Assembly (NCBI GenBank): GCA_019339365.1
Contig: CP079859.1
Location: 2,046,001 to 2,110,000, forward strand
Source: Vibrio neptunius
GTDB lineage: Bacteria > Pseudomonadota > Gammaproteobacteria > Enterobacterales > Vibrionaceae
DNA length: 64,000 nt
Reading direction: 5' to 3'
A model generated the notes under the pieces. The model had not been told where the DNA came from. It ran no database searches and saw nothing but the letters and a program-made list of their open reading frames with translations. Position 1 is the stretch's first letter. Every line of letters starts with the position of its first letter. Below, one piece after another: positions 10,953-32,393 of this stretch. A program made the translations under genes and the position numbers.

Positions 10953-11591
10953 TTATCGTCCCCGTCCGTCAACCATGACGATGAGTGTTTTGGTAATGAT
11001 GCTGATATCCATCAGAATCCAAGATTTTAGCGAACGCAGTGATAAGGCATAACTATGGTCAAAACCGACTTTTCTGCGAACGTCATCGATACAGGTGTCA
11101 TAACCTTGATTAACTTGCGCCAACCCAGTAATGCCTGGCATTACTCCATAGGTACGGTCAGCAAAGTAAGGGATGGCCGTTTCTAGCTTGTTATAAAAGC
11201 TAGGGCGTTCAGGGCGTGGGCCAATTAATGACATATCGCCGCGGATGACATTAAACAACTGCGGGATCTCATCTAGGCGTGTCTTTCTCAGGAAACGACC
11301 GACTGGAGTAATTCTTGGATCGTTCTGTGTCGCCCAGACTGCACCTGTACGCGTTTCTGCATCGACATACATGGTACGAAACTTAATGATTTCAAAGAAC
11401 ATCATTTGTTCTGGTGTTGATTTACCCACACGCAGCTGCTTATAGAAAATGGGTCCTTTGGAGTCGATTTTTATGGCTAAGGCAATTGCGGGCAAGATAG
11501 GTGACAGCATCAAAAGCCCGATTACAGCGCATAGAAAATCGAAGATACGTTTTGCTAACCAGATTGAATATAAAGAAGATACGTTGCTCAT
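10953..11591 (-). CDS. sypR: Undecaprenyl-phosphate sugar phosphotransferase, SypR
   Basis: 212-residue bacterial sugar transferase (initiating polyprenyl-phosphate glycosylphosphotransferase, WcaJ C-terminal type). It places the first sugar-phosphate on the lipid carrier at the inner membrane to start repeat-unit synthesis. Visible: KRIFDF with a hydrophobic helix (about residues 14-43), KIDSKGPIFYKQLRVGK, FEIIKFRTM, RLDEIPQLFNVIRGDMSLIGPRPERP and PGITGLAQV. ATG 11591 has GGAGC upstream; a longer in-frame extension reaches into sypQ and is rejected. It is the last gene of the sypP-Q-R operon, 13 bases after sypQ. Strong family call; the syp name rests on locus order. Confidence 0.9.
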   Translation of the reverse strand: MSNVSSLYSIWLAKRIFDFLCAVIGLLMLSPILPAIALAIKIDSKGPIFYKQLRVGKSTPEQMMFFEIIKFRTMYVDAETRTGAVWATQNDPRITPVGRFLRKTRLDEIPQLFNVIRGDMSLIGPRPERPSFYNKLETAIPYFADRTYGVMPGITGLAQVNQGYDTCIDDVRRKVGFDHSYALSLRSLKSWILMDISIITKTLIVMVDGRGR

Positions 11592-11604
11592 AAGATGCTC
11601 CTTA

Positions 11605-12789
11605 TCATTGAATTCTTGTCCAACGAGTGGCTTCGAAACCGAACAAATAGCGTAAGCCACCAATTAGGTTGGCAAAGTGTCCTGCTACTATGTATGCGAT
11701 TAACTGACAGTATTTATGGCTAAATATGTGTGGGAACACATGCCCCATAATCGCAATTGAGTAAACAGCGAGTTGTGCAATGGTTCCGATGAAAAATATT
11801 GGGTGGTGAATAAGTACGGCAGAAAGCACCAGACACACAATCATGAGGTACGGTGTTATCAGCCTTAAACCTTTGCCTGAAAAGAAGGCAAAAGCGACGC
11901 CTTTGTATCGTGGCAAAAACAATTCCGCCAAATGCAGTGCTTGTTGCATGTTGCCAGCAGAAATTCTGAGTCGACGTTTAAAATCGTTGTCGGTATTGGT
12001 TGCTTCAAGCTCTAATGCAATCATGTCCTTGTCGTAATCGACTCGGTATCCTTTACGAATAATCTCCATCGGAATAATGAAATCGTCGTTGATAACGTTT
12101 TGCTTGAGCGGTTCAAACAAGTGAGTTCTGAACAAATAGAAAGCACCATGAGCGCCAAGTGTGCTACCTAAACTCGCCTCATGCAGTTTCATTCTGCTTT
12201 GGTATTGCCAGTATTTGCTTTCACCTTCACTGCCATTAGAGAGTAACTGGTAATGTCCGTTTACAGCACCAACAGTTTTATCTTTGAAGTGCTGGTTGGC
12301 GACCAGCAGGGCATCGACAGAAATCAGAGCTGACACATCGCTCAATGCAGTAATGTCACTTGATATTGTTAACATCTGTTCATTCACTAGTGCGACCTTG
12401 CCGCGGTTCTGTTCGAAGACTCGAATTTCGAAATGTGTATCACAGCAAAAGGCTTCTTGAATCGTGTCCTGAGCCACTTGAGCAGTATTATCTGTGCACC
12501 CATCGCAAGCGATAATGACGTTGTAGTGCTCTTTTGGGTAATCCAGACAAGCTAAGTTGCGGATTTTGTCTGCGATCCACTGTTCCTCGTTATATGCAGG
12601 AACAAGAATAGTAATGTCAGCACATTGTCTATCTGAACGAGCGCTCTTGTAGCCTCGTTCAATTTGTTTTACTTCTTCCACAGGGTGACGTTTAGAGTAC
12701 CAAGCAAGCACAAGCGGGTAGCCGACATGGTGATAGACAATGAGCCCTGCACATATTGTGAAGAAAATTCCAATAGTCAGATCAATCAT
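11605..12789 (-). CDS. sypQ: Membrane glycosyltransferase family 2, SypQ
   Basis: 394-residue processive-type GT2 enzyme. N-terminal membrane helix (about 5-27), cytosolic catalytic domain beginning ITILVPAYNEEQWI with CDGCTDNT, a later acidic motif (INDDFIIP), then three or four C-terminal membrane helices (from about 310). The usual QxxRW is represented by KRRLRIS, a divergence seen in some GT2 members. Expected to extend the Syp repeat unit from a nucleotide sugar at the inner-membrane face. Its ATG overlaps the sypP stop by 4 bases (ATGA), so the two are translationally coupled. Confidence 0.88.
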   Translation of the reverse strand: MIDLTIGIFFTICAGLIVYHHVGYPLVLAWYSKRHPVEEVKQIERGYKSARSDRQCADITILVPAYNEEQWIADKIRNLACLDYPKEHYNVIIACDGCTDNTAQVAQDTIQEAFCCDTHFEIRVFEQNRGKVALVNEQMLTISSDITALSDVSALISVDALLVANQHFKDKTVGAVNGHYQLLSNGSEGESKYWQYQSRMKLHEASLGSTLGAHGAFYLFRTHLFEPLKQNVINDDFIIPMEIIRKGYRVDYDKDMIALELEATNTDNDFKRRLRISAGNMQQALHLAELFLPRYKGVAFAFFSGKGLRLITPYLMIVCLVLSAVLIHHPIFFIGTIAQLAVYSIAIMGHVFPHIFSHKYCQLIAYIVAGHFANLIGGLRYLFGFEATRWTRIQ

Positions 12790-13877
12790 GCGTATTCCTC
12801 CTGTGTTATTGCTCTATAGGCATCCACCATTTTCCGAATGTCATTATTGTTGACAACAAACTGGCGTGGTGAGGATTGAGGGGACTCAAGCAGCATTTGG
12901 GATAGCTTCAAAGCAAGCTCACTACTATTTTCTGCTCGGGCAAGCTGACTTGTTATAGGGCATAACGTTTCATTGGTACCACCAACGTTTGTCGCGACGG
13001 TAGGAACGCCACACGCTTGTGCTTCCAGTGGTGCGAGGGGGAAACCCTCACATCTTGATGGCATACAAAACACATCGAGAGCCCGATAAAAGGTTGGCAT
13101 GTCGTCCACCAAATCGAGAAATTGCACTTGATGAGATATAGATAAGTCTTCAGCCAGTCGTGTTAATGCGTCTTTTTGGCTTCCTATGCCAGCAATAGCG
13201 AGAGTCACATTGCTATTAATGAGAGGGAGTGCCTTGAGAAGAATATCATGGCCTTTTACTTTTTCGAGGCGCCCAGCGGAACCTATGATTTTTCCATGCG
13301 CAGGTAGTCCAAGCTCACAGCGTGCCTGTGCCTGAGATCCCGGCTTGAATCTTTCACAGTCTATGCCGTTTTTTATTAAAGTGATATTGGCATAGTTAAG
13401 CTTCTCATCTAATTGCTCTTTAACTAGCCCTGCATCTGCTACCAGATTGGGTCGGGATAGTTTTAAGGCAAGTCTCTGCAAAATAAGATGTTTTGGGTTG
13501 TTAAGATGCCAAGCGTCGTGTTCTGTGTGGACTATGTGCTGAACACCTGCAAGTTTAGCTGCAGTCGCTCCATAAATTAGAGGTCCAATGTGGTGAGTGT
13601 GAACGACTCTCGGTTTCATCTGTTTGAAAAGTTTACGCAGTTTAGATATCGCCTCGAAATCAAAACCAGGCCTCTTAGTTAGAAAGATAAGTTTATCTTC
13701 AACTTGCTTTAAGCTGGGCCAGTTTGCCAATGTTTCTCTGCGATTTCCTTCGAGACTTATCAGGAAAACGTCTTCGTCTGATTGAGCGAACTTGAGCATG
13801 TTGATAGCCAATGTTTCTAATCCGCCTGGTGCCAAATGCTGAACAACATGAATGGTTGTTTTCGGTTGACTGATCAT
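12786..13877 (-). CDS. sypP: Glycosyltransferase (GT4-like), SypP
   Basis: 363-residue GT-B glycosyltransferase. The N-terminus IHVVQHLAPGGLETLAINML and the C-terminal donor-site region PSRCEGFPLAPLEAQACGVPTVATNVGG (EGFPLAPLE with EX7E spacing) are typical of group-1/family-4 retaining enzymes of exopolysaccharide pathways. It is cytosolic, acting on the lipid-linked Syp repeat unit. It is the first gene of a unit with sypQ and sypR; a sigma-54 -24/-12 element lies 39-53 bases upstream of its ATG, matching the SypG-dependent sypP promoter known from Vibrio fischeri. Confidence 0.88.
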   Translation of the reverse strand: MISQPKTTIHVVQHLAPGGLETLAINMLKFAQSDEDVFLISLEGNRRETLANWPSLKQVEDKLIFLTKRPGFDFEAISKLRKLFKQMKPRVVHTHHIGPLIYGATAAKLAGVQHIVHTEHDAWHLNNPKHLILQRLALKLSRPNLVADAGLVKEQLDEKLNYANITLIKNGIDCERFKPGSQAQARCELGLPAHGKIIGSAGRLEKVKGHDILLKALPLINSNVTLAIAGIGSQKDALTRLAEDLSISHQVQFLDLVDDMPTFYRALDVFCMPSRCEGFPLAPLEAQACGVPTVATNVGGTNETLCPITSQLARAENSSELALKLSQMLLESPQSSPRQFVVNNNDIRKMVDAYRAITQEEYA

Positions 13878-13915
13878 GCGATTTCCTTGGTGTGCGATGG
13901 TTTAAATTAGAATCT

Positions 13916-13930
13916 GCATAACCTGTGCCA
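13916..13930 (-). promoter_or_regulatory. Sigma-54 promoter of sypPQR
   Basis: Minus-strand TGGCACAGGTTATGC matches TGGCAC-N5-TTGC with correct GG-to-GC spacing. It lies 39 bases before the sypP ATG and has a SypG-like half-conserved box 47 bases further upstream. Confidence 0.8.
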
Positions 13931-13977
13931 AAAAAATGTTCTTATATAACAGCGTGTTAAGTTTTTATGTGTGAGGT

Positions 13978-13992
13978 GTTTTAATTTGAGAT
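13978..13992. promoter_or_regulatory. Putative SypG enhancer box (degenerate) for sypP
   Basis: GTTTTAATTTGAGAT matches 11 of 15 bases of the box TTCTCAATTTGAGAA found before sypA; the TTTGAGA half is intact. Its spacing to the -24/-12 element resembles the other syp promoters. It is the weakest of the set. Confidence 0.5.
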
Positions 13993-13995
13993 TCG

Positions 13996-15432
13996 TTATG
14001 ATTGAAATGGTTTTATTTTGGGAATTGCTGTGATCACTTGCTTGCCTGTTAGCGACTGCAACTCACTCGCGCTTCGAACGGAGGTGTCAAAAAGCTCAAT
14101 AATTGTCGCGATACCGCAGCCAAGGCCAATACCAGCGACGAACCCAGCGATGATAAATATGATGATGGGAAGGTTGGCAGGTGAGCTTGGTGTATAAGGT
14201 AAATCAATGATCTTGACTCGCTTGTTTTGCTCAAAGATGCCCAGTGAGCCAGTAAGCTGAGCCATTTCATACCTTTGAACCAGCTCATCATAGAGTTGTC
14301 TCTTGATTTGAACATCTCTTTGCAACTGGAACATATCTTTTGCTTTATCGCCGAAGTAATTGGCTTGCTGCTCAAGCTCTTCAATCATTTTGCGTAAGCT
14401 TTTGGTTTCTTCACTCAAGGATTCAAATCTACCTCGCACTAACTGAAGACTATGTAGCTGGGTAACGAGTAAAGGCTGAATATCACCAATGTCAGACAAA
14501 GTATTGCTACTTGCAATATCCCATAGTTGTTCGCTACTGATGTTTGGTTGCTCAACTTTGAGCAGTTCTGAACGTTCGTTCTCGAGTCGGCGAAGCTCCC
14601 TCTGTTTACCGAGTACAGCGCTGTGGCTATCCGTGTATTTTGCCCTTAGCAAAGTCAGTTCACTGCGAATCTCAATGATTTGGTCTTCAATTTTGCCAAC
14701 CACAGGGTTGGTTTTAGAGAGTTGTTGATCGAGCGAGCCCAGACTACGCTCGACGCCAGAAAGTTCTGCCTCTTTCTCGGCTAGGTTTTGCTTGAGGCTG
14801 GCTAGTCTTGCCAGACTTTGGCCCTGCATTTCAGGTGTTGCGGAAGCATTTCTGTTCTTAAAATCAGCAAGTGCTGTTTCTGCTAAATCGAGCTCCTCCC
14901 TTCGCTTATCAATATGCATGGTAAGAAACTCGCTTGAATCTTTGATAGATGAGCGTTCTGGAGCCAACATTTGCTCTATAAAGTGTTCGCTGACCGATTC
15001 TAATAGCTCTTTCATACCTAGAGGTTGTTTAGACGATAGTTGAATTTTAAGAAAGTCTTTGCCTGGCTGGGTTACCGTTAAACTCGCTGCAAGTTCGGCG
15101 ATGACTTGATCGACTTGAAAAGGGGACATTGAGTCGTTAATCATCCCGCGCTCTTTGGCGACGGATTTTAAAATGTGCCTACTTTTGAGTAAGGTACTCA
15201 GGGCGGCTAAACGCTCTTTTAGCATGGTGGAAACCGCGATATCCTCCAGAAAAGGATTCATTTTTGCCGTTTCCTGAATCAGCATACTGGTGTGAGATAC
15301 GTATTTCTCTGGCGCCATTTTACCGACGAAATACCCAGCAAAAGGCATGAGCAACATCGGTAAAACAATCACGTACCTTTGTCTCCAAGCGGCATTAAGT
15401 ATAATGATAAAGCGCAGTTTCAGTTCATTCAT
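13996..15432 (-). CDS. sypO: Chain-length determinant / polysaccharide co-polymerase, SypO
   Basis: 478-residue Wzz/GumC-type inner-membrane protein controlling polymer length. Membrane helix at about 20-38, a long periplasmic part rich in coiled coil (about 170-390), and a second helix near the C-terminus (about 425-448, LPIIIFIIAGFVAGIGLGCG) preceded by the proline-rich PYTPSSPANLP typical of the family. No C-terminal kinase domain is fused; the separate SypD would supply that role. The gene overlaps the sypN stop by 4 bases. It is the last gene of the M-N-O unit, and the sypP promoter follows immediately. Confidence 0.88.
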   Translation of the reverse strand: MNELKLRFIIILNAAWRQRYVIVLPMLLMPFAGYFVGKMAPEKYVSHTSMLIQETAKMNPFLEDIAVSTMLKERLAALSTLLKSRHILKSVAKERGMINDSMSPFQVDQVIAELAASLTVTQPGKDFLKIQLSSKQPLGMKELLESVSEHFIEQMLAPERSSIKDSSEFLTMHIDKRREELDLAETALADFKNRNASATPEMQGQSLARLASLKQNLAEKEAELSGVERSLGSLDQQLSKTNPVVGKIEDQIIEIRSELTLLRAKYTDSHSAVLGKQRELRRLENERSELLKVEQPNISSEQLWDIASSNTLSDIGDIQPLLVTQLHSLQLVRGRFESLSEETKSLRKMIEELEQQANYFGDKAKDMFQLQRDVQIKRQLYDELVQRYEMAQLTGSLGIFEQNKRVKIIDLPYTPSSPANLPIIIFIIAGFVAGIGLGCGIATIIELFDTSVRSASELQSLTGKQVITAIPKIKPFQS

Positions 15433-16543
15433 AGTGACTCCAGAAGCTGGTTAACAACTTGACTTCGAGCATCCCAGCTGTCGCGACGAACAATCTCGGT
15501 ATCAGTATTACCTTGACTGAGAACCTTATTGAGTGATTGACTAAATTCCGTTGCGTTGTTGGCAATTCTGACGTGTGAACGATAAGGTTCAAGCGCTGGA
15601 AACGGTGTCGTGACAACCGGTGTTCCAGTTGCAAGATACTCCATCAATTTTAATGGACTACAAGCTTGAATCTGATCATTGAACAAGAAAGGCAGCATGC
15701 TAGCATCCCAGTGTTGGCTATAGCTAGGTAACTCACAGTGTGGTTTTGGGCCTAAATAAAATACATTTGGGAAATTCGGCAGAGGATTGTGGTTTAGCTC
15801 CAACGGTCCGATAAAAACGAAGTTCCAGTGTGGGTTATCCAAACAGACTTGAGCGATCAATGTATAGTCCAGCCATTGGGATATACTGCCGTAAAAACCA
15901 GCGATAGGCTTGCCATCTAAGGGGAGGTCTCGGGCACGGCTTATTGAGGTGTTAAACAATTCGTAGTCTACGCCATGAGGGATGTAAGCGGTCTTTGTCG
16001 CGTCGAACTTTTTGCAGATTTCCTTGCTTGCACCCAAGATAAGATGCGCTTTCTCAGCCAGTTTTCTCTCATGACTACTCACTGTCTCATGATCAACACC
16101 AGCAAGAGAGTTGAAATCATCGCCACAATAATACACAACTGCAGCTTCATCTAGGTTGCCACATAAATCTGCTGCAGTCGGAAGAGAAGTCCACAAGATT
16201 GGTTTGGTTAGCCTCAGCTTTTCGATAATAGGTTTGAGTTGAGTGAGTAGCATGGACTTTGCTATTTCCCTTGCCCACGAAGATTTTGGAGCAGGGATGG
16301 TTTTTAAGTTCACGACCGTAATATTAGTACTTAGTCGCTCGTTGCTAGACGAGTAGCCTTGCTTGCCTTGGCCGAGGAGCTTTGTGAAAGCACGAACTAA
16401 GTCTTTTTTATTAAACTTAGGCTGACGCAGGCCGATTGAGTTAACCCACAGCACTTTCCGATCAGTGGCGAGTCGAGAAACAATATGCTGTGTACTTGAA
16501 GGCAAGCCCCGAAGTCTTCGCCAAATACGATTAAGTCACGCAT
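15429..16543 (-). CDS. sypN: Glycosyltransferase, SypN (one-base deletion as read)
   Basis: GT-B glycosyltransferase of 371 residues when repaired. The true ATG is at 16543 with AGGAG upstream and encodes MRDLIVFGEDFG; the frame then breaks at a run of four G (plus-strand C4 at 16507-16510). One additional G restores GLPSSTQHIVSRLA and the rest of the protein, which includes WINS-type N-terminal elements, YYCGDDFNSLAG, a PHGVDYELF donor-site loop and PLKLMEYLATGTPVVTTPFPA. The ATG overlaps the sypM stop by one base. The indel is most likely a sequencing error. Role: transfer of one sugar of the Syp repeat unit. Confidence 0.82.
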
Positions 16544-17269
16544 TATGCCATCTCCTTACGCGAGAGTTTACGCACCACTTTGGCGGGGTTGCCAGCAGCA
16601 ACAACGAAGGGAGGAAGGCTTTTCGTTACGACACTACCAGCCGCCACAATGGTACCTTGGCCGATTGTAACGTTTGGGCAAACAGTGACATTTGTACCTA
16701 GCCAAACATCTCTATGTAAAGTGATGTTGCCCACGTCCTTTTCGCTGTCGCCTGCACCCAATGCCCTTTTTTTCGGCGTGTAGCGAATGGCCTGAGTACC
16801 CAAAAAGAAACGCTCTTCCGGCCATTCTCACATTATCGCCGATGACGATGCGCCGACCCACCGCAATGGTGGTTTGCCAACCGATATCGACGTTACTGCC
16901 GATGATAAGTTCTGTCTCTAATGATTGAGTGCGGCCGCTAAAGGTGCTGTGGCCTGAAATCCTACAATCGTTACCTAAATAAATCTTCAGGGGGCCAGTG
17001 ACGAGTGGTACACCACCAAACAGATAAAGTCGCTTGCCAAATTGAGTCAGACGCCCTTTAAAGGCAGGAGTATGAATTAATACTCGCATCACATTGGCAA
17101 AAAGGGATTGAGCGCCTGTGTATAGAAAACGGATAGTCTTGTTGAAGAGAGTTGGGGTTGGGAGATCGCAGGCGCGAATGTTTTTCAAAATGACAAACAA
17201 TTTGCGATAAATGGGGTTTGGATTCTCTTTGAGCCAAATTTTGACTTCGTTAATGTGTGTCGCCAGCAT
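16543..17269 (-). CDS. sypM: Hexapeptide-repeat acyltransferase, SypM (one-base insertion as read)
   Basis: Left-handed beta-helix acyltransferase (WbbJ/LbH type), 241 residues when repaired; it would O-acetylate a sugar of the Syp polymer. Hexapeptide-like repeats run through the second half (IGSNVDIGWQTTIAVGRRIVIGDNVRM, then VWLGTNVTVCPNVTIGQGTIVAAGSVV). The frame breaks in a run of seven A (plus-strand T7 at 16767-16773); six A would join HAEK to RALGAGDSEKDVGN and restore the fold. ATG 17269 is chosen because GGAGG lies 6-7 bases upstream. A sigma-54-like element precedes the gene. Confidence 0.82.
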
Positions 17270-17307
17270 AACGGCCTCCAACTTTGAATGTTTACCTTGG
17301 AGGTGTT

Positions 17308-17322
17308 ACACGGAACGTGCCA
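17308..17322 (-). promoter_or_regulatory. Sigma-54-like promoter of sypMNO
   Basis: Minus-strand TGGCACGTTCCGTGT has a perfect -24 part, while the -12 part reads GT instead of GC. It lies 39 bases before the sypM ATG, and a perfect SypG box sits 58 bases upstream of it. Confidence 0.65.
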
Positions 17323-17361
17323 AAAATTAACTTATTGTAAAACAGAAGCTTAGATATTAAT

Positions 17362-18741
17362 TTATTCAGTTTTTGGCGTATTCTCATTTTGAGAATGGTT
17401 TTGAACAATACGATTCAGGGCGATACATAGAGCGGCAAGGATGTAAATTGGCCAGGTAAAGCCTTGAGTGAGGAATGTGCCTGATACTATGGTTCCCATG
17501 ATGCCAGCATATACGGCTGCTGCCGTCGCATGAAGGTAAGGGGAGTATTTATCTGGCACAGCATCTAAAAGTGATAGCGTTTGTTTGCTTGTCTTTACCA
17601 GTGAATAGATACACCCAATAAATACAATCAGGCCAAGGAAGCCTGTTTCTGCAAGTACACCAAACCAGGTAGAATGCACGGCATGATTTAGTCCGTCCCA
17701 ATGAGGGCTATAGAAAAAGTAATTGGCGTAAAAGTTGTTCAGTCCAACGCCTGTTAACGGGTTGGCGACAGCCATACCGAAAGCGGCTTCCCAAGCATAG
17801 AGTCTGCCCATGGCGGAAGCATCAATGCCTTCTTCAGCAGCACCGCCTGATTGTCTGTCCGAAATCCCCGCAGCTGCAAACAGAATAAGTAAGCCGACAG
17901 TTCCAATCAAAGCGAGCAGAAACTTGGAACGTATAATACGTAAGCCGAATATTCCAAATACCGCGATTGAACCGAGCAATCCACCTCGGCTTTGGGTGGC
18001 GATAACAGCACTCAATGCCAAGATCGTCGCGACTAAACCGAGAATTCGAACGCTGCCAAGATTTTTTGTGGTCATTAAACTGATGGCAAAGGCTAGGGGA
18101 AACATAAGTACTAGTGACAAGTCATTTGGGTCACCTAAAACTGAGCCAAGCTGGCGACCAATGGTGACACGTGTTCCTTCGACTAGGCCTATACCGTTGA
18201 TCGAATTCGATAGCGCAACAAGGGCGATTAGGCTTCCTGCTAACACAATGAGGATACTGATGCGTTTGACATTTAGAACGCTATTCACGAGCCATGCGAT
18301 GGCCAGAGTCATGACGATAATTTTCCAATAGATTGATTTGAAGTAGGTAATGGCCAATCCGGGGTTGGAGGACAAGATTGCACCGACGAGGACCAATAGC
18401 CAAAACACTGCAAACCAAGTTAAGCTCTGATGCCAGAACATCTGAAGACTTTTGCTGATTAAGCTGTGCCACAACAGAGCACTCAATGCGCCAACTGAAA
18501 GTAGTAAAGGGATCTTGAGTGAGTAAAGGGCTGGAATGGCTTCGTGAATTCTGAAAAATGAAAATAGGACGAACAAACTGACCAACCAAAAAGTCTGGTT
18601 GAGAACGAACAGTATTCCAAGAGGCATCATGCAGAGCACAATGGCTAAGGCAGGGTGAGGGATGAGCTTCCAGATAAGTGCGACAAATAGACACACCCCT
18701 GAGGTGATAACGGCTGGAAAGAGCTTATCTGCTTGTATCAT
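17362..18741 (-). CDS. sypL: O-antigen ligase/polymerase family protein, SypL
   Basis: 459-residue polytopic membrane protein of the Wzy/WaaL superfamily with about ten to twelve hydrophobic helices. A large periplasmic loop carries ...GLNNFYANYFFYSPHWDGLNHAVHSTWFGVLAETG, the H-S-x(2)-G-x-LAE-x-G signature of O-antigen ligases. It probably polymerises Syp repeat units. ATG 18741 (MIQADKLFPAV) follows TTGGAG and overlaps the sypK stop by 4 bases; an upstream in-frame extension is cysteine-rich and inside sypK, so it is rejected. The 3' end contains the SypG box for sypM. Confidence 0.86.
   Translation of the reverse strand: MIQADKLFPAVITSGVCLFVALIWKLIPHPALAIVLCMMPLGILFVLNQTFWLVSLFVLFSFFRIHEAIPALYSLKIPLLLSVGALSALLWHSLISKSLQMFWHQSLTWFAVFWLLVLVGAILSSNPGLAITYFKSIYWKIIVMTLAIAWLVNSVLNVKRISILIVLAGSLIALVALSNSINGIGLVEGTRVTIGRQLGSVLGDPNDLSLVLMFPLAFAISLMTTKNLGSVRILGLVATILALSAVIATQSRGGLLGSIAVFGIFGLRIIRSKFLLALIGTVGLLILFAAAGISDRQSGGAAEEGIDASAMGRLYAWEAAFGMAVANPLTGVGLNNFYANYFFYSPHWDGLNHAVHSTWFGVLAETGFLGLIVFIGCIYSLVKTSKQTLSLLDAVPDKYSPYLHATAAAVYAGIMGTIVSGTFLTQGFTWPIYILAALCIALNRIVQNHSQNENTPKTE
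17381..17395. promoter_or_regulatory. SypG enhancer box for sypM
   Basis: TTCTCATTTTGAGAA is a perfect inverted repeat TTCTCA-N3-TGAGAA. It sits inside the last codons of sypL, upstream of the sypM sigma-54 element. Confidence 0.8.
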
Positions 18742-20189: not shown

Positions 20190-20199
20190 AACAACTTCC

Positions 20200-22593: not shown

Positions 22594-22628
22594 TGCTCTT
22601 CCCCTATGCCATTTTAATAAGGGATAAC

Positions 22629-22643
22629 GCAATTGAGATGCCA
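22629..22643 (-). promoter_or_regulatory. Sigma-54 promoter of sypIJKL
   Basis: Minus-strand TGGCATCTCAATTGC matches TGGCAC-N5-TTGC with one mismatch and exact spacing, 36 bases before the repaired sypI ATG. A perfect SypG box is 68 bases upstream. Confidence 0.82.
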
Positions 22644-22698
22644 AGATCTAAGGTAATCTAACTATATGAATAAGCGAGAAAAATAAAGAGTACTATTT

Positions 22699-23760: not shown

Positions 23761-25222
23761 CTTCTTCTGCTTCCCATGCTTGCTTTTTACGATATACAGT
23801 TGATGGACTTAACTCGAGTAACACCGCGGCATTGAGGACGTTACCATCGCAAAAATCAATTGCCTGCTGAATGGTTTCTCTTTCGATCTGCCACATCGGG
23901 CGTATCGTTACTGGCGTGGCACTTTGTGTGTCGAGATTTTCAGGCTGTGCATTGGAAACAGGTATAGGCGTGTCTATCGCTGTAACTGGTTCAGTTGGCG
24001 CAGGGGTTTTGTAGCTGTTTGAGGCTTGCACTTTGGGCTTAGTGGTTTTATTACTCTTGGATATCTGTTCAGGTAGATGAGCCACAGAGAGCTTTGTTTC
24101 GTCATTGAGAACGACGATGTTACGAATGACGTTCTGCAGTTGTCTCACATTACCTGGCCAGGAATAGTGCTTAAGCAAAGACTCTGCATCGCGGTTGATA
24201 CCATTAAACTTCTTACCATCTTCTTTGGCGAACAACTTAAGGAAATGCGTTGCAAGCGTGGCGACATCAGTTCCACGCTCTCTTAATGGTGGCATCTCAA
24301 TCGGCACGACATGAACACGGTAGTACAAGTCTTCGCGGAATCGTCCTTCTTCGACTTCTAACAGTGGGTCACGGTTGGTCGCACAAATGATACGCACGTC
24401 GACCTTCATTTCTTTTGAACCACCAAGTGGAGTAAAAGTACCCGTTTGCAAGAATCGCAGCAGTTTTTTCTGCATTTCGAGTTCCATCTCGCATAGTTCA
24501 TCAAGAAAAAGTGTGCCACCATGCGCTAACGATGCCGCTCCCTTTCTGTCGGTAGTCGCACCTGTGAATGCCCCTTTGACATGGCCAAAAATTTCGCTTT
24601 CCATCAGATCTTTAGGGATGGCACCACAATTGATGGCAATAAAAGGCTTATCGTTTCGTTTACTTTCTTTGTGGATCGCTTCCGCGCACACTTCTTTACC
24701 GGTACCGCTTTCTCCTATGATAAAGACGCTCGCTGATGTTGGAGCAACAGAGTCGATGATTTTGTAAACCCCCTGCATGGGCAGGCAGGAACCAATGAAT
24801 CCATGGAAACGATTTCTATCGAATTTCGCTTCGATATCTTCGACTAGGTGCTCGAGTTTGGCTTGTTGTAAGTGAAGGTTTATCGACGTTTTGAGTCGGT
24901 CAGCCTGAATTGGCTTTTCGAGAAAGTCTTTCGCCCCCTTCTGGAGCAAGCTTACCGCGATATCTACTGAGCCGTGTGCGGTTGCAACGACGACAGAGGT
25001 CGGCACTTGGTGCTCGTTGATCCAGTCCAAGATATCTTCGCCATTCATGTCCGGAAGCTTGAGGTCCAAAATCACAAGCTGGGGTACGTTTCGTTCTATG
25101 AATGCTTTAGCATCACGACCCGTTTCAACATGAAACAGGTCAAACGCTTCATCTTTAACGTACTGTTTGTAAAGGACTGCCAGAGAAGTGGAGTCTTCAA
25201 TAAGTAGTACTTTTGCTCTCAT
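23738..25222 (-). CDS. sypG: Sigma-54-dependent response regulator, SypG
   Basis: 494-residue NtrC-type activator. Receiver domain (about 1-120; phospho-acceptor D53 in LVILDLKLPDMNG, K at EKP), AAA+ sigma-54 interaction domain (about 140-380; Walker A GESGTGKE, GAFTGA loop, FLDELCEM, GRFREDLYYR), a Ser/Pro/Thr-rich linker (about 395-440), then a Fis-type helix-turn-helix (NVLNAAVLLELSPSTVYRKK). In V. fischeri SypG is phosphorylated through SypF and activates four syp promoters. The same four sigma-54 elements and boxes are present here. It lies 20 bases after sypF. Confidence 0.94.
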   Translation of the reverse strand: MRAKVLLIEDSTSLAVLYKQYVKDEAFDLFHVETGRDAKAFIERNVPQLVILDLKLPDMNGEDILDWINEHQVPTSVVVATAHGSVDIAVSLLQKGAKDFLEKPIQADRLKTSINLHLQQAKLEHLVEDIEAKFDRNRFHGFIGSCLPMQGVYKIIDSVAPTSASVFIIGESGTGKEVCAEAIHKESKRNDKPFIAINCGAIPKDLMESEIFGHVKGAFTGATTDRKGAASLAHGGTLFLDELCEMELEMQKKLLRFLQTGTFTPLGGSKEMKVDVRIICATNRDPLLEVEEGRFREDLYYRVHVVPIEMPPLRERGTDVATLATHFLKLFAKEDGKKFNGINRDAESLLKHYSWPGNVRQLQNVIRNIVVLNDETKLSVAHLPEQISKSNKTTKPKVQASNSYKTPAPTEPVTAIDTPIPVSNAQPENLDTQSATPVTIRPMWQIERETIQQAIDFCDGNVLNAAVLLELSPSTVYRKKQAWEAEEDEQQYAD

Positions 25223-25242
25223 GTGACGTTACCTTGTTGTAT

Positions 25243-27543
25243 CTAGCCAGCTGGTTCGATGAAGCCCAGCGTTTTTCTGTATTCAAGAGCCGTCAGTGAT
25301 TTTTCAGCCAGCTCTTTGAGTTCTTCAGAGAGTTCAAATGCTTGTTGTTCATGATTCTCTAAACACATGCACTCAATCTTTCGTGCAAGATTAGACAATA
25401 CTCGATTCCCCAGTGCCAGAGAAGAACTGCCCAATGTATGGCTTTCAAACTCGAGGGTTTCTTTATCTCGCTCTTCCATTGCTTGATATATCTTAACCAA
25501 GCGTGCGTTAGACTCCTGTATGTAATGATCGATCAGCATTGGGAGAACATCAGCACTGGTGTCTTCTATCATTTGCTCTAAAACTTGTTCGTCGACGAGT
25601 TCTAAATCCACTTGTGTGTCCTGATTCATAGGATGATTGCTAACGGTTTGTTCGAGAATTTGCGATTCCTGCTCTAAATTATCAGATTTTTCATCAGAGT
25701 TGTTCGCACCATCACTTAAGAATAGATTAATTTTTTCAATTAGTTGTGACAAACGAATCGGTTTTGACAAATAGTCGTCCATCCCTGCATTGAGGAACTG
25801 CTCTTTGTCTCCAGATAGAGAATGGGCTGTCAATGCAATGATGGGTATGTGACGAACTTTTTCGTCATCCATTGAGCGTATGGTTCTGCAGGTTTCCATG
25901 CCGTCCATTTCTGGCATCGATATATCCATAAAAATAAGGTCGTAATGGTACTGTTCGACCATCTCTAAAGCGCGCAGGCCATTTTCAGCGATGTCCATCG
26001 AGAGACCCATGCGCTTAAACATTTCGCTTATCACCAATTGATTCGCTTTGTTGTCTTCTGCCACTAGAATACTGACATCTGATACCTGTAATTCGTTGTG
26101 CCTTTGATTGTGGTGAGTGGAACAAATAAGCTGGTCTGCGAGTTCAAGTTTGATTGAAAAGGAGAAAGTGCTGCCCATTAATGGTGTGCTCTCGGCCTCA
26201 ATGCTCCCGTCCATGAGCTCACACAGACGCTTGCATATCGCGAGACCCAATCCTGAGCCTTCTTGGCTCCTTGAATAGGTTTGATCGACCATAGTGAATT
26301 CGTCAAATAGATAATCCATTGCGCTACGGTTTATTCCAACGCCTGTATCAATGACTTTGCACACGATCTTGACTTGATTCCCTTCGACGATCTCAGTGCT
26401 GACTTGAATTGTAACGCTACCTTCCTTGGTAAACTTCAGTGCGTTGCCAATCAAGTTGTGAAGGATTTGTTTAACGCGGTTTTCATCGCCTTGAACATTC
26501 GCGGGCACAGAGCCATCAAGAATACAGTTCAAATCAAGAGAACGAATTTTTGCAGAGGGTTGAAAGGTTTCAACAACATTTTCGACGCATTGACGAAAAT
26601 TGAATGGCTTGTGCTCTAACCGCAGTGTGTTGGACTCCATTCTTGTGAAATCCAAAATGTCATTGATGATACTGAGGAGAAACTGACCTGACTCTGTGGC
26701 TGTGTTGACCAGTTTCTTTTGCTCTCGAGTGAGTCGAGACTCTTCAAGAATGTTCAAAATGCCTAAAACGCCGTTCATCGGTGTGCGGATTTCATGTGAC
26801 ATCGACGCTAAGAAACGGCTTTTCGAGACGTTTGCCTGTTCGGCTTCGAATCGAGCGTTTTTAAGATCATGATAGCTTCTTTCGAGTTTTACAGACATAT
26901 CGTCAAAGGCTCGTGCGACGTCCCCTAGCTCGTCTTTTGATTGATCGTTAAGTCGGAATCCTGGCCCTTGTTCACTGACCGTATTGGCTGCCTCAATGAG
27001 TTTCACTAAGCTTCTGGTCAGATAGGTCCCCAGGAAGAACGAGAAGATGGCGACCAATACGACTTCGATAGAGGCAATGCCTATTATTGCCTTTTGAGCG
27101 CTGGTCAACATGGAGTTGATTGCGGAAATTTCAAAACCAATGTCTATCGTGCCGTAGCTTGTCCCTCCGTTTATAACCTGAACCTGAGTGTCGAAGATGC
27201 CATCATTGACGGAATCTAGAGTGTAATCAACGGACATCATTCTTTGTAGCAGGGCTTTATCACCGTCACATGAGAGCTCTTTATCATCACGCATCACCCT
27301 TATATACGCGATGTCCTCTATGGTCATAAACTCTTTTACCAAGTCATCCAAGGTCGCAAGGTCGGTGGCGATCATTGCATCCTTTGCTGCATGGGCAAAC
27401 ATGGAAGCAGTCGAACTTGCTCGTTGGATGAGTTGTTTTTCATTAGAGTTGGAGAGAAAGCTCATCGCACTGACCGTGAGTACTACGAGCATAACGATCT
27501 CAATAAAGGCGATCCCAAGTATGGTTTTCATTCTAAATGACAT
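25243..27543 (-). CDS. sypF: Hybrid sensor histidine kinase, SypF
   Basis: 766-residue hybrid kinase. Membrane helix (about 7-30), periplasmic sensor region (about 31-150), second helix (about 151-173), HAMP (about 175-225), HisKA with phospho-acceptor H250 (MSHEIRTPMNG), HATPase (DTGVGI, SGLGLAICKRL), receiver with D540 (FMDISMPEMDG), and HPt with H702 (ESHTLGSSSLALG). This is the standard SypF architecture: in V. fischeri the HPt passes phosphate to SypG and the kinase also takes input from RscS. The gene begins 17 bases after a PhnD-like binding-protein gene, which raises the possibility of a ligand-binding partner for the periplasmic domain. Confidence 0.92.
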   Translation of the reverse strand: MSFRMKTILGIAFIEIVMLVVLTVSAMSFLSNSNEKQLIQRASSTASMFAHAAKDAMIATDLATLDDLVKEFMTIEDIAYIRVMRDDKELSCDGDKALLQRMMSVDYTLDSVNDGIFDTQVQVINGGTSYGTIDIGFEISAINSMLTSAQKAIIGIASIEVVLVAIFSFFLGTYLTRSLVKLIEAANTVSEQGPGFRLNDQSKDELGDVARAFDDMSVKLERSYHDLKNARFEAEQANVSKSRFLASMSHEIRTPMNGVLGILNILEESRLTREQKKLVNTATESGQFLLSIINDILDFTRMESNTLRLEHKPFNFRQCVENVVETFQPSAKIRSLDLNCILDGSVPANVQGDENRVKQILHNLIGNALKFTKEGSVTIQVSTEIVEGNQVKIVCKVIDTGVGINRSAMDYLFDEFTMVDQTYSRSQEGSGLGLAICKRLCELMDGSIEAESTPLMGSTFSFSIKLELADQLICSTHHNQRHNELQVSDVSILVAEDNKANQLVISEMFKRMGLSMDIAENGLRALEMVEQYHYDLIFMDISMPEMDGMETCRTIRSMDDEKVRHIPIIALTAHSLSGDKEQFLNAGMDDYLSKPIRLSQLIEKINLFLSDGANNSDEKSDNLEQESQILEQTVSNHPMNQDTQVDLELVDEQVLEQMIEDTSADVLPMLIDHYIQESNARLVKIYQAMEERDKETLEFESHTLGSSSLALGNRVLSNLARKIECMCLENHEQQAFELSEELKELAEKSLTALEYRKTLGFIEPAG

Positions 27544-27560
27544 AGCGGGTACTCCCGTGA

Positions 27561-28360
27561 CTAATCTAATAATCTAATGTTGAGCGCTCTAACGTCGTTC
27601 CAATCGCTATCTTGTGCGGGTACAAAACCTTTGAGTTTAAGTGTCTCTAGATGTGCTAACCGTTCCGGGGATGCGCCAAATTCCATAAGCGCTTGCTGAA
27701 GTTTGTCTTTTACCTTGTTATTGAGATTGGGATGAACGGCGATGGCATGAGGGGTATAGCCTTTGGTGGTCCAAATTGGAGTCAGTTTTTGCCGAGTTTC
27801 CTCGGGTAACGCCATGTAGGTTCTTAATATTCCTCCCCCGCAGGGAAGAAGCCTTTGGCAACAGCCAAGTAAACTGAATCATGAGATGATACGTAAGATG
27901 GTTCAAACGTTATGTTGTTCTGTTGTAGATAAGCTTGAGTCAATACAGTCGCTGCAAAAGCTGCCGGTGAGGGGAAGGCCAGTTGAGCATTATTCAGGTG
28001 TTCAGGTTGGGAAATATCGCTGTCTGTGCGGACAACAATGATGCCTTTGAGTTGTTTGTCTTTGGCTTTTGCAATCGCGCTATACCCTGTCGTTTCGCTG
28101 AATACGGTGTAATGGTAGGGGTTCATATAAGCGATATCATACTCACCATTTTTCAAACGTTTTTCGAACGTTGGAATGTCCGATGCTGTGCTAAATAGAA
28201 TCTTTTTTCCTGTTGTCTCGGAGAGGTATTCGATGATGGGCGCCCATTGTTTAGCAAGCTTGCTCGCAGAGTGCTGGGGAACAACACCGAAAGTAATGGG
28301 CTCAGCATGCAAGGGCACACAAAGGAATGTTAATAGAGCAAAGTAAGAAAAGTTTTTCAT
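27561..28360 (-). CDS. PhnD-type periplasmic binding protein in the sypE position (one-base deletion as read)
   Basis: Phosphate/phosphonate-family (PhnD-like) solute-binding protein, about 266 residues when repaired. It has a signal peptide ending near PLHA-EPI, then ITFGVVPQHSASKLAKQWAPII, the family's YDIAYMNPYHYTVF motif and LAFPSPAAFAATVL. The frame breaks in a run of five G (plus-strand C5 at 27835-27839); six G restores PAGGGILRTYMALPEE. ATG 28360 follows AAGGA. No permease or ATPase gene is nearby, so transport is unlikely. It lies between sypD (9 bases) and sypF (17 bases), where V. fischeri has sypE; a sensing role with SypF is inferred. Confidence 0.85.
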
Positions 28361-28369
28361 AATCAATCC

Positions 28370-29065
28370 TTAGCCAGAGTGTGCGAGAAACTCGTTAGTA
28401 ACCAGTTTTTGTGCCCACTTTTCTCTCCATGATTGGGGGATAAACCTTAATCTTCGGACTTCTCTCGCCATTTCCTGCCCCAATGTCGCTTGGTTCTTTA
28501 AGTTCAAAATGGAACCTAACAGTGAGATCTTTGGGCTTTGGAGCAGTTGTTGCGATTTCTGAATTTGACCAGTCGATGTTTTCCCACCCATGACGACCAA
28601 TACGGTTTGGTCACACGCACTTGCAACGACCTGAGCGGGAATGTTTCCACGGTTTACATGAAGTAAAGGTGAGGTGTCACAAATGACTCTATCGTAGTGC
28701 TGTAGCCATTTATCAACGGAGCCACTCAACACACTCGGATCTTTGTAAGCGAGGAGAGTCGACGTTTGCTCCGGTACGGGTAAACCTGTGAAAAGCTGGT
28801 GGGAAGATTTGTGTTCCAGCAACACACCTATATCATCGCCTTGAGCGGTAACGTCGAGTGCGGGCTCAAACGCTGGATGAAACAAGTTCAGATCCACCAG
28901 GAGGGTTTTATGTCCGCCGAGTAAGTAGCGCTCAGCCAACGCAGAAGCAATGGACGTGACGCCGTCACCTGAGTTGCAACCCGTGAGACACACAGAACGT
29001 GCCTCGGCCAACTCAGCCGCGAGGTAGATCTGCTCTACCTCGGTCAATGTAGCAGGAATAATCAT
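28370..29065 (-). CDS. sypD: CpsD/Wzc-like ATPase domain protein, SypD
   Basis: 231-residue cytosolic P-loop protein of the capsular exopolysaccharide (BY-kinase/MinD) family, expected to work with the chain-length protein SypO. LLVDLNLFHPAFEP (Walker A') and DRVICDTSPLL (Walker B-like) are clear. The Walker A loop reads GCNSGDGVTS, with Val where the catalytic Lys normally stands, and no C-terminal tyrosine cluster is present (it ends EFLAHSG). It may therefore be a regulatory non-kinase ATPase-fold protein. The start ATG overlaps the sypC stop (TAATG). Confidence 0.82.
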   Translation of the reverse strand: MIIPATLTEVEQIYLAAELAEARSVCLTGCNSGDGVTSIASALAERYLLGGHKTLLVDLNLFHPAFEPALDVTAQGDDIGVLLEHKSSHQLFTGLPVPEQTSTLLAYKDPSVLSGSVDKWLQHYDRVICDTSPLLHVNRGNIPAQVVASACDQTVLVVMGGKTSTGQIQKSQQLLQSPKISLLGSILNLKNQATLGQEMAREVRRLRFIPQSWREKWAQKLVTNEFLAHSG

Positions 29066-31156
29066 TACAACGCTCCTATCAATACAATGGTGGTTGTCAA
29101 TCGTAGGATGTCTTCAAGGCCTACTCGCGCTCTTTCAAGGATGCTCTCGCTACGGTCTGGAATGTAAATTGTGTCACCTGCACGTAGCACGGGAAGTTGG
29201 TAAATGTTGGCTGTTTTGCTGAAGTCTACGAGGTCAAAAGTGCGAGCTTGACCTTGGCAACAGGACATATTGACGATTGAAATTTTTTCTAAATAGGCTC
29301 GTTCCGACGGCCCTCCAGCTTCTGCAAGAATGTCAAGAATGGTCATGTTGTCATCAAACACATAGCGCCCAGGGCTGTTCACTGCGCCAAGCACGCGAAC
29401 TGTTGACTCTTTACTGGTATCCAGCCAAATTTTGTCTTTCTCTGGGATGTAGATTGTGTCACCCATAGTCACTTTGGGTAGTAGGCTCTCATCTCCAGTT
29501 TCGAAATAAAGGGACAGATTAAGTTTGCTGACCTTTGAGTAGGTTTTGTCTCTGTGAGTGATTTTGATGTTATGAATGTCGGCATCTTTGGTTGGGCCAT
29601 CGGCTGCAGATAGAATATCTAGAAAATGCATGTCTTTTGTAAAACGATAGCGACCCGGAGCGTTGACTTGACCGAAGACATATATGGAGGCATCAGAGCT
29701 TTGGCGTACCCATTGTGATTTGTTGTCAGAAGGATCTTGTGGTAAATCGTGGATGCGAATGATGGTGCCGGCGCTGATAGTAGGCAGTTCCGACATCGGT
29801 GCTCCGTTGATGATAAACTCATCTAGGTTGAATGTCTCCATTTTGCCGTTGGGTGTCACCACCTCTATTTTTGATGTGTCGGCCCGCAGAGTTGGCCCAC
29901 CTACATGTGCCAGAAGGTGCATCATGTCCATTTCATCAGACCACTCTATACGTCCTGGCCGAACGACTTCACCGATGACATTGACAGCGCGATCTGGTGA
30001 GATCTTTAACCACGATTTCTCGTTCATGTCGGTTTTTTTCAGGCACAAATATCGCGTCACCTGGGTTGATTTGAGGTGGCGCTTTGGTGGTTAAACCTTC
30101 TGTGTAAGCCGTTAAATCAAACTTGATGACTTGCCCGTTCGCCTTGATGAGGCGAATTTGACGGGATTCTGCGTAACGGGTTGGGCCGCCCGCGTTGGCC
30201 AGAATATCCATAAACGAAGCGCCTTTTTTACCTTCGTAAGCGCCTGGGCTCTTTACTTCACCCATGATGTAGATAACGTTTGAACCCGCACGGATTTCTT
30301 CTTCCTGTTTAGGGACGAAAATAGTAGTACCCGGTTGAAGGACAGGAAGAAGTGACGTGTCACCACTGTCGAGATACTCTTTCAGGTTAAAAATTTGAGG
30401 CTTGTTATTGCTGATGACACGGATCTGCTCAACGGAAGCGTATCGGGTTACGCCACCAGCACGCATGAGAATATCGACTAAATCTGCCGTATTTTTGAAG
30501 GTGAAGGAACCCGGTGCGTTGACTTCACCGAATACCTTAATCGCGGTTCTGTTGTCTCCGCTATCACCAGAATTGGCTAGCTTACTGGCATCAAATTGCT
30601 GCTCAATGTTGCCCACCAGAGGTGAAGCTGGGACAAATATGGTGTCCAAAGATTTAAGCTTAGGCAGCAGAGTCTCATCGCCTGTGTCCAAAAAGCTTTT
30701 GTAATTGAAAGGAAATTTTTCCTTTCCACGCTTAAGAAGCAAGTTGTTTAACTGTGCACCCGAGCGTAAACCACCAGCGGCATGGATAGCCATTTGAACA
30801 TCAGCACTTTTTGATAAAGTGTATTCACCGGGAGAGTTTACGTATCCCTGAATAGAGATAAGCACTTGCTGTTCTGAAATGTAAACCGATGCAGTAGACA
30901 GATCTCGATATACTTTACTAAGGGCGTTTAGTACTGACTGTTGAAGTTGGTTTTCTGTGTATCCTGCCACGTACAGAGCGCCAACTTCAGGTAAGTTGAT
31001 TCTACCGCGTTTATCGACTTGGAAGCCCTTGTTTAACGTTTCTTCGCCCGGCAGATTAACCTGAATCATGTCGCCGATTTGAACGCGTTCTAACTCAGCG
31101 TTAGCAGAAACAGAAAATAAGCAGGCTAGGGTAATTAATATGAGTTTAATCCACAT
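29065..31156 (-). CDS. sypC: Outer-membrane polysaccharide export protein with multiple SLBB repeats, SypC (one-base insertion as read)
   Basis: Wza-like export protein, 696 residues when repaired. Signal peptide (MWIKLILITLACLFSVSANA), poly-export domain (VQIGDMIQVNLPG...VGALYVAGYTENQ), then a series of about six SLBB domains, each shaped like IKVFGEVNAPGSFTF...DILMRAGG and ended by an IFVP or IYIP strand. The frame breaks in a run of seven A (plus-strand T7 at 30033-30039); six A joins VPEK to TDMNEKSWLKISP. ATG 31156 is preceded by GGAGG and overlaps the sypB end by 11 bases. The repeat-rich form is longer than Wza (about 380 residues). Confidence 0.87.
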
Positions 31157-31985
31157 GATAATAACCTCCATTTAGCTTGTTCTCTGCTAGCTCGTTGGTT
31201 TCCACAACTTCAATGCTGACCCTTCGATTGGTGAGTCGAACTCCGTCGGATTCCCCTTCAAAAAGAGGTAAAGATTCGCCAAGAGATTTAGCCTCGATCC
31301 TTCTTGGTTCCAAACCAAAAATAGTTAGGTAGCGTTTCACTTGTTTTGCTCTACCCATTGCTAACTTTTGGTTCTGAAGCTCATCTCCGACCGAGTCTGC
31401 ATGGCCAGTAACGGTAAGGTTTAGTGACTTATGCTCTCGCAAAATGTTGGCTGCTTGGGCAAGGTTCCCCATGTATTTTGGGTTCACTTCTGTTGAGTTG
31501 AATGCAAATTGGTTATCTACATTCAGCAGGTTGTAGAGCTTGTCAATGACTGCCAATTGTTGTTGGAAAGAAAATTCATCATGTGGCGGGACACACTTAG
31601 CTTGTGACGTTACATAATCAAGTTGTCTCTCGAGTTCGTCTAGACGTTTGCGTTGGATGACGATGTCGTTGGCTGCATCCAACAACAATCCCCCTTCAAG
31701 CTCTCTGGCGATTCGGCTCTGTTTTTCAAGTGCCTGAACGACAGCTGCTGGGAAGCACCAGCGAGCACCTTCACGGATGAGTGCATCAAGATGGAGTTTT
31801 GCCAATTGCCAATCGAAGCGCAGTCCGTGTTCAGGGCCTAACGGTTCGTCGGGCATGACAGGGGTGAAGCTAGACTGAATGTACTGTTCTGCAAGTCCCC
31901 CGCGTCCCTCTTCGGGGTAACTGCTACAGCCAATTACGCTAACTATAGGCACTATCAGGGCTATGTGTTTGATGTAATTTACCAT
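31146..31985 (-). CDS. sypB: OmpA-family lipoprotein, SypB
   Basis: 279 residues. An N-terminal lipobox-like signal (IVSVIGC-SSYPEEG) suggests an outer-membrane lipoprotein; the middle is helical, and the C-terminal third is a peptidoglycan-associating OmpA domain (LTVTGHADSVGDELQNQKL, RAKQVKRYL, SLGESLPLFEG, NRRVSIEVVE). In the Syp pathway it probably anchors or organises the export machinery. It is the second gene of the locus, 41 bases after sypA, and its end overlaps the start of sypC. Confidence 0.88.
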   Translation of the reverse strand: MVNYIKHIALIVPIVSVIGCSSYPEEGRGGLAEQYIQSSFTPVMPDEPLGPEHGLRFDWQLAKLHLDALIREGARWCFPAAVVQALEKQSRIARELEGGLLLDAANDIVIQRKRLDELERQLDYVTSQAKCVPPHDEFSFQQQLAVIDKLYNLLNVDNQFAFNSTEVNPKYMGNLAQAANILREHKSLNLTVTGHADSVGDELQNQKLAMGRAKQVKRYLTIFGLEPRRIEAKSLGESLPLFEGESDGVRLTNRRVSIEVVETNELAENKLNGGYYHVD

Positions 31986-32026
31986 GCCAACTTCCTTTGT
32001 TAGTAAGTGAAATCTCGTTTATTGTT

Positions 32027-32344
32027 TTAGTGAGTGCGAGAGTTCACAGGGATTGCTTTGTTGATACGTAGTAGGTTGATTATCTCCAGTGGTTGACCAG
32101 TGACATTCTCGATGCGCATTAGACGCTCTCGTTCTACTAAGCGTTTGTAGAGGTACACTAGGGCGCCAACACCTGACGAATCCAGAAAGCGGACATTGCG
32201 GAAATCGATTTCGACTTCTCCGTGTTGGTCAGCGATAATTTCATCAATATGTTTTTGAGCGTGTCGACTGCCGTCAGCATCTAAGTTGCCATCAATTTGA
32301 AGGGTAAGGATTTCATTAGTTAGTTCAATTTTACGTAGTTCCAT
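32027..32344 (-). CDS. sypA: STAS-domain protein, SypA
   Basis: 105-residue single STAS domain of the anti-sigma-factor-antagonist type. The phosphorylatable serine sits in VRFLDSSGVGALVYLY (about residues 51-66). In V. fischeri SypA promotes biofilm formation and is controlled by phosphorylation/dephosphorylation by SypE. No sypE is present in this locus, so its regulator here must lie elsewhere or SypA may be constitutively active. It is the first gene of the locus, with a sigma-54 element 35-49 bases and two enhancer boxes about 100-133 bases upstream; GGAGATATC precedes the ATG. Confidence 0.92.
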   Translation of the reverse strand: MELRKIELTNEILTLQIDGNLDADGSRHAQKHIDEIIADQHGEVEIDFRNVRFLDSSGVGALVYLYKRLVERERLMRIENVTGQPLEIINLLRINKAIPVNSRTH

Positions 32345-32378: not shown

Positions 32379-32393
32379 GCACTTTACGTGCCA
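32379..32393 (-). promoter_or_regulatory. Sigma-54 promoter of sypA
   Basis: Minus-strand TGGCACGTAAAGTGC matches TGGCAC-N5-TTGC with one mismatch and correct spacing, 35 bases before the sypA ATG. Confidence 0.88.

Follow-up and report, generated by a model that had tools for sequence, protein, structure and literature searches.

A 64,000-nucleotide stretch of Vibrio neptunius DNA (contig CP079859.1 of assembly GCA_019339365.1, positions 2,046,001 to 2,110,000; hereafter the window) contains a syp-type biofilm polysaccharide locus, in which a gene for a PhnD-like binding protein lies between sypD and sypF. Open reading frames (ORFs) and a domain search place the run on the minus strand, from sypA (32027–32344) to sypR (10953–11663), in the order A, B, C, D, [P], F, G, H, I, J, K, L, M, N, O, P, Q, R, where the bracketed gene, a match to family PF12974 called P throughout, is distinct from sypP. 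Letters were assigned by order and family, following the V. fischeri gene order, and C, D, F, G and H were additionally matched by BLAST among relatives. On this footing the ORFs and domains bear out the original prediction, made from the letters of the window, that sypA–D and sypF–R are kept in the V. fischeri order on one strand. The STAS, OmpA, Wza-like, hybrid kinase, sigma54 activator and glycosyltransferase products, encoded in this order, identify a locus of the syp/eps/rbd/scv type, with four of its genes split. The STAS protein SypA is followed by the OmpA-domain protein SypB (31146–31985) and by the polysaccharide export protein SypC, with Poly_export and SLBB domains (29065–31171, in the pieces 29969–31171 and 29065–30060). 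The upstream neighbour of P is sypD (28370–29065), encoding a tyrosine-autokinase-like ATPase that matches TIGR01007 below the cut-off and no Pfam family. P itself runs from 28360 down to 27561, leaving 9 bases to sypD and 17 to sypF, a spacing that had been read correctly at the outset. SypF (25243–27543) is a hybrid kinase composed of a transmembrane segment (TM), a sensor (residues ~28–152), a second TM, and HAMP, HisKA, HATPase, REC and Hpt domains; SypG (23738–25222), with REC, sigma54 activator and HTH domains, is the expected output of the relay.

P encodes a candidate periplasmic binding protein. Its match to PF12974 is above the gathering score, its relatives in the PDB have the periplasmic binding fold of the PtxB/ArrX kind, and the fold of a Neptuniibacter relative agrees; by eye, its N-terminus resembles a signal peptide, and SypA has no such start. 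Not noticed in the original prediction, the gene is interrupted by a frame change, and its two ORFs (27824–28366 and 27561–27878) match PF12974 positions 1–160 and 165–242, respectively. Also frame-split in this assembly are sypC, sypI (21389–22517) and sypM (16543–17305). In a genome of the same species, V. neptunius S2394 (G100, NZ_JXXU01000001.1), C (701 aa), P (268 aa) and I (417 aa) are intact, and P (L005:3002-3808) covers the whole family model (1–242 of 242); the splits are therefore likely sequencing (indel) errors. The two P pieces are the sole PF12974 matches over the cut-off in their own genome, and none of its 43 matches to the permease domain PF00528 falls in the window, in keeping with the claim that P has no transporter partners. 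Subunits of ATP-binding cassette (ABC) importers are encoded with a permease and an ATPase, an arrangement found for P neither in its own genome nor among the neighbours of its relatives.

That such a gene can occupy this slot has been on record since 2018. Lebellenger et al. (PMC5801674) found the D–F interval of Vibrionaceae eps loci to hold SypE in some species, three genes of a ProXWV-like glycine-betaine transporter in others, and in others again a periplasmic phosphate/phosphonate component by itself. Their ‘PABC’ gene is of the same kind and in the same D–F position as P, a periplasmic component alone, without a transporter. In the sections consulted it is left unexplained, with phosphonate side groups and sequestration by the slime discussed, no function or partner given beyond phosphonate or scavenging ideas, and no link drawn to the state of F. 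What is new here is that P tracks the input half of SypF. No prior description of a P–SypF pairing was found in the open-licence PubMed Central literature, and no link to P in the consulted parts of the VC1086/VC1087 literature, including PMC9426504.

SypC was found in 155 Vibrio genomes, and in 140 of these the 12 kb from sypC were fetched and the D–F interval annotated. The set leaves aside the genome studied here and 14 more, most of which are fragmented assemblies or match SypC weakly; four of the 14 (G002, G094, G195 and G225) were examined later. P is present in 39 of the 140 loci, and SypF is full-length in all 39. Where P is missing (101 loci), SypF is reduced to its Hpt in 75, lacking in 14 and full-length in 12; ‘Hpt-only’ denotes a short ORF matching the Hpt end of SypF, the domain having been confirmed on one of them (L018). 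Among the 12 loci with full-length SypF and no P, three carry SypE, and nine of the genomes hold a P gene outside syp that has a kinase of its own. Mapped on a SypC tree, P shows 16 changes and full-length F 15. Ten independent pairs separated by supported branches differ in full-length F, and P differs the same way in 7–9 of them and the opposite way in none (median p 0.008); conversely, in 13 pairs differing in P, F differs the same way in 8.3 on average, the opposite way in none and not at all in 4.7. Four loci (L051, L061, L062 and L066) carry P and full-length F as a block, then three transporter-length genes and a separate Hpt-only F, and their P proteins are 94–97% alike. This may be one old block lost together in sister lineages rather than four gains; under either history, P and full-length F move together. 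When HahK is overproduced, a V. fischeri sypF mutant regains full biofilm with no more of SypF than its Hpt domain (PMC12369376). The Hpt-only remnants fit this sufficiency: they retain the relay end and have lost the sensing end along with P.

Three genes of glycine-betaine-transporter length were also seen between sypD, or full-length sypF, and an Hpt-only sypF in 34 of the 140 loci, including L044, on which the families (OpuAC, BPD_transp_1 and ABC_tran with CBS) were checked; the others were recognized by gene length.

The pairing extends beyond syp. A search for P in 227 Vibrio genomes gave 87 strong loci, 44 of them at syp (the 39 above plus the window, G195, G225, G094 and G002) and 43 elsewhere. 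Apart from that of the window, 47 lay outside the fetched syp set: 40 were fetched first, one of which (L166) proved to be syp, and G069, G091, G213, G033, G225, G094 and G002 were added later, together with 12 weaker matches. In 87 of 87, the next gene after P on the same strand encodes a sensor kinase, and a SypF-type sensor is detectable in 86; split ORFs affect the kinase in L201 and L335 and P itself in L337. With a profile made from SypF only, the sensor is still detected in 39 of the 40 kinases paired with P in L165–L204. The partners scanned outside syp are built as HAMP–HATPase with or without a HisKA match, HAMP–kinase–REC, PAS–kinase–REC or PAS–kinase–REC–Hpt. The original prediction had named PhnD-like genes scattered independently of sypF, together with a sypE at another locus, as a finding that would speak against it: the genes are indeed scattered, 43 of the 87 being outside syp, but each of them is immediately followed by a sensor kinase gene of its own. 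In the three non-syp loci scanned (L165, L170 and L200), response regulators carrying HD or GGDEF-EAL domains lie near the module, a lead toward a link of these modules with cyclic di-GMP.

Homologous proteins number 5370, of which 120 were listed, and the loci of the best 80 of 479 named relatives, hereafter the named loci, comprise 30 from Vibrio (overlapping the 87), a remainder mostly from Gammaproteobacteria, and two from Thermodesulfobacteriota. A kinase follows P in 78 of the 80, 76 recognized by script and L255 and L256 by inspection; the sequence of L274 ends inside the sensor ORF. The wider sensor profile was built partly from Vibrio partners, and the SypF-only profile agrees with it for all 78 named pairs run, a set that includes L274 and leaves aside L282 and L291. 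In a control of 12 weaker PF12974 proteins, five lie beside an ABC ATPase without a kinase and one has neither; L323 is followed by the same genes as L324, but at a contig start. The remaining five, from other Vibrionaceae genera (L329–L333, 28–30% identity), are followed by a hybrid sensor kinase. As in AioX-type systems, P stands directly beside a sensor kinase gene. In seven non-Vibrio syp loci (L238, L243, L245, L253, L258, L263 and L268) SypF is 1007–1044 aa long, the extra length in L238 and L258 being two PAS domains between HAMP and HisKA.

The slot occupied by P is the one in which V. fischeri carries sypE, and the original prediction had P stand in its place. The window has no sypE between sypD and sypF. 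With the D–F interval protein of L133 (HATPase_c_2, REC, SpoIIE) as query and the best six candidates per genome scored in the 227 Vibrio genomes, full-length SypE was found only in G115, G116 and G117 among the matches listed. The V. neptunius genome gave one 33% match, to a receiver domain, and its sole SpoIIE protein reads REC–PP2C–HATPase and has no similarity to SypE, whose HATPase–REC–PP2C arrangement, the mark of a V. fischeri-type syp locus, is not found here. By these searches sypE is most likely absent from the genome altogether, as from most Vibrio genomes searched; its absence is documented in V. vulnificus and V. parahaemolyticus (PMC4517449), the cluster of the latter being described as devoid of E, F and M alike (PMC8941931).

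At G000:C2:853845-854404 (L342) in the same genome, a 99-aa STAS protein is followed by this HsbR/CrsR-like REC–PP2C–HATPase protein, which is split in two frames in the assembly and may be a further regulator of SypA and other STAS proteins.

Had P replaced SypE, it would now control SypA, the target of SypE in V. fischeri (PMC4517449), or the same branch. The shared slot invites this reading, as does the distribution of the two genes in the 140 Vibrio syp loci, where SypE (3 loci) and P (39) never occur together (0/140). Most of these loci (98), however, have neither, and in 6 of the 80 named loci a full-length SypE (33–43% identity to that of L133) shares the locus with P. Five of them read D-E-P-F, namely those of a gammaproteobacterial metagenome-assembled genome, Photobacterium galatheae, Motilimonas and two Psychromonas, in which a gene for a 127-aa receiver-domain protein separates E from P; the sixth, in P. 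lipolyticum, reads D-P-F-E. The three SypE-bearing Vibrio genomes also carry P elsewhere, each beside its own kinase. P moreover looks secreted and SypA does not. Replacement is thus hardly credible and was rejected on account of the six loci that hold both. The locus, the spacing and the missing sypE of the earlier observation stand; the role of P as a substitute is not supported.

The part of SypF that P accompanies is its input half. An AF2 model of residues 1–172 (pLDDT 89.5) gives the periplasmic sensor a PAS/Cache-like fold, whose structural matches include the LuxQ domain 3c30 and 1zhh_B. P co-diverges with the SypF-type input half and far less with the kinase core, in 147 pairs that remained of 195 after reduction at 97% identity, all recruited by their match to the sensor profile. 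P and the kinase input half (TM–sensor–TM–HAMP) behave like a single exchangeable unit that is found with other kinases as well. This bears on whether P lies near kinases merely through inheritance of an old operon, without a joint function. Adjacent binding-protein and kinase genes whose products do not bind have been reported (PMC11113362), and the syp P is nearly one lineage, with two changes on a P tree of 79 rows. Set against this are the repeated joint change of P and full-length F, co-divergence that falls mainly on the input half, and the recurrence of this neighbourhood with kinases of several architectures and as far away as Thermodesulfobacteriota, which make such hitchhiking very unlikely.

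The putative binding site of P sets it apart from PtxB and ArrX. Sixteen diverse P sequences share 51 invariant columns, and at the position of the Ser-x-Ser of these two proteins all 16 alignment rows read Ala-x-Ala. Among 315 P sequences, a number that includes duplicates and L329–L333, FP[SAT]PxAFA[AS] is found in 298, SHDS in 301 and YMNPYH in 300. At the Ala-x-Ala site, L329–L333 carry a different motif, NSTIGRY. The segments YMNPYH, SHDS, AGGG and FPSPAAFAA, the putative lining of the pocket in this family, rank with the best-conserved stretches of the protein and occur in ~300 of the 315 sequences apiece. The pocket residues of AioX include Ser161 and Ser163 (PMC5908839). P thus lacks the Ser-x-Ser of the PhnD/PtxB/AioX oxyanion binders, and because this is replaced by Ala-x-Ala its ligand is probably, judging from the alignment, neither a phosphonate nor another oxyanion. 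Phosphonate is accordingly not favoured as the ligand.

The same substitution bears on the view of P as an orphan transport or scavenging protein that captures a nutrient, or a substituent of the polysaccharide, for an ABC importer encoded far away. All 43 permease-domain matches of the genome lie elsewhere, family members other than AioX orthologues belong to ABC transporters (PMC5908839), and the phosphonate side groups and slime sequestration discussed in PMC5801674 would suit this function. The window, however, has no permease domain, a sensor kinase gene immediately follows P in all 87 Vibrio loci, and Ser-x-Ser has given way to Ala-x-Ala in 298 of the 315 sequences, so we regard scavenging as improbable. 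Slightly less so, though still unlikely, is that P regulates SypF constitutively and without a ligand, as an accessory brake, for which YfiR acting on YfiN offers a parallel. The sensor has a PAS/Cache-like fold of its own and might itself bind a ligand; against this, the putative pocket motifs of P are among its most conserved parts, as expected with a bound ligand.

We therefore favour P as the periplasmic ligand-binding partner, or antenna, of SypF, as AioX is for AioS, and consider this reading likely. Its basis is gene linkage, joint gain and loss, co-divergence, the predicted fold class of the sensor and the absence of Ser-x-Ser; the physical contact, the ligand, the sign of the effect and the output through SypG, the last known for V. 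fischeri SypF, are inferred. Secreted P would close on a small ligand and dock on the periplasmic PAS/Cache-like domain of SypF, which would set the balance between kinase and phosphatase; phosphate would then pass through REC and Hpt to SypG and switch on syp transcription. Of the original interpretation, the sensing role feeding the SypF–SypG relay is well supported by linkage, joint gain and loss and co-divergence with the input half, and the part that invoked replacement of SypE is not.

Several observations weigh against an antenna function. SypF can persist without P, as 12 of 51 full-length SypF proteins have none at syp, and two of the loci concerned, L010 and L011, retain 69 and 76% of the sensor sequence relative to the reference. 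The kinase of L204 has no SypF-type sensor by the SypF-only profile, the kinases of L329–L333 match only the wider one, and L282 has a kinase before P and none after it. The correlation of P with HAMP and with TM1 is as strong as that with the sensor, and some co-divergence is to be expected within any operon. A single-chain AF2 prediction of P and the sensor of one locus, joined by the natural spacer and run with 23 in-frame natural rows, gave two folded domains with a disordered linker (pTM 0.60) and no confident interface; it is uninformative because the linker joins a periplasmic to a cytoplasmic end. The window's own P is split, and the strain may lack a working copy unless the split is a sequencing error. 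Finally, neighbours need not be partners: AgtB–AgtS and PA4985–AruS are adjacent pairs without binding (PMC11113362).

Known systems offer close parallels, and of those worked out AioX–AioS–AioR is the nearest. In it AioX is thought to act as a ligand for its kinase, AioR binds upstream of an RpoN promoter, and AioX orthologues are described as the only signalling members of the family (PMC5908839). P shares family and fold with the arsenic-oxyanion sensing proteins AioX, ArrX and ArxX, is likewise clustered with a sensor kinase and has no importer; SypG, for its part, is a sigma54 activator. Unlike the aligned ArrX and PtxB, P has Ala-x-Ala; AioX was compared through its published residues only. 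XAC2383 of Xanthomonas citri (5ub3, 5ub7) is a PhnD-like periplasmic protein of the same fold as P, reportedly paired with the membrane diguanylate cyclase XAC2382 and not with a kinase; its sequence is too distant for the P profile, and it is absent among the matches listed. LuxP and LuxQ, a periplasmic binding protein and a hybrid kinase with a PAS-like periplasmic domain, resemble the arrangement proposed for P and SypF. The LuxQ periplasmic chain, ~210–220 residues in solved structures, is longer than that of SypF. LuxP is structurally and phylogenetically distinct from AioX (PMC5908839).

A broader proposal, to which we give an even chance, is that P belongs to a large PhnD-derived antenna family in Vibrionaceae, Oceanospirillales-type genera and a few Thermodesulfobacteriota, with a shared non-oxyanion pocket and a SypF-type input half. 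In many marine bacteria, one common extracellular molecule would then gate not only the syp polysaccharide but also the kinases that neighbour HD/EAL-type regulators; vibrios losing the antenna would have cut SypF to its Hpt, with control passed to other kinases. The signal sensed by SypF is a missing piece of the best-studied pathway of symbiotic biofilm formation, and P is a candidate sensing part in the 44 Vibrio genomes found to have it at syp, with the periplasmic domain of the kinase as its proposed counterpart. If this holds, an extracellular molecule helps to decide when the biofilm sugar is made. The results also suggest why the sensor half is gone from most of the remaining Vibrio syp loci, and they correct the idea that P stands in for SypE; given the family of homologues, one ligand screen would inform several pathways.

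A consensus scan for sigma54-like -24/-12 sites found one on the minus strand at 32379–32393, 35 bp before sypA and with one mismatch, similar ones at 22629–22643 (before sypI) and 13916–13930 (before sypP), and none before P. The nine matches against 5.2 expected are weak, and the positions alone speak for the sites. P being downstream of sypA in the same gene run, it would be made along with the polysaccharide machinery. The remainder of the run, sypH to sypR (10953–23760, minus strand), encodes glycosyltransferases and flippase-like, polymerase, acetyltransferase-like, chain-length-like and priming transferase proteins, the split genes here being sypI and the acetyltransferase-like one. Group-1 glycosyltransferase domains occur in sypH, sypI, sypJ, sypN and sypP, Wzy_C in sypL and a family-2 glycosyltransferase in sypQ, and sypR encodes the priming transferase; the flippase (sypK), hexapeptide (sypM) and chain-length (sypO) families match below the cut-off only. 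Outside the run, an ORF pair at 32573–33500 resembles, by eye, one split DNA-ligase-like gene.

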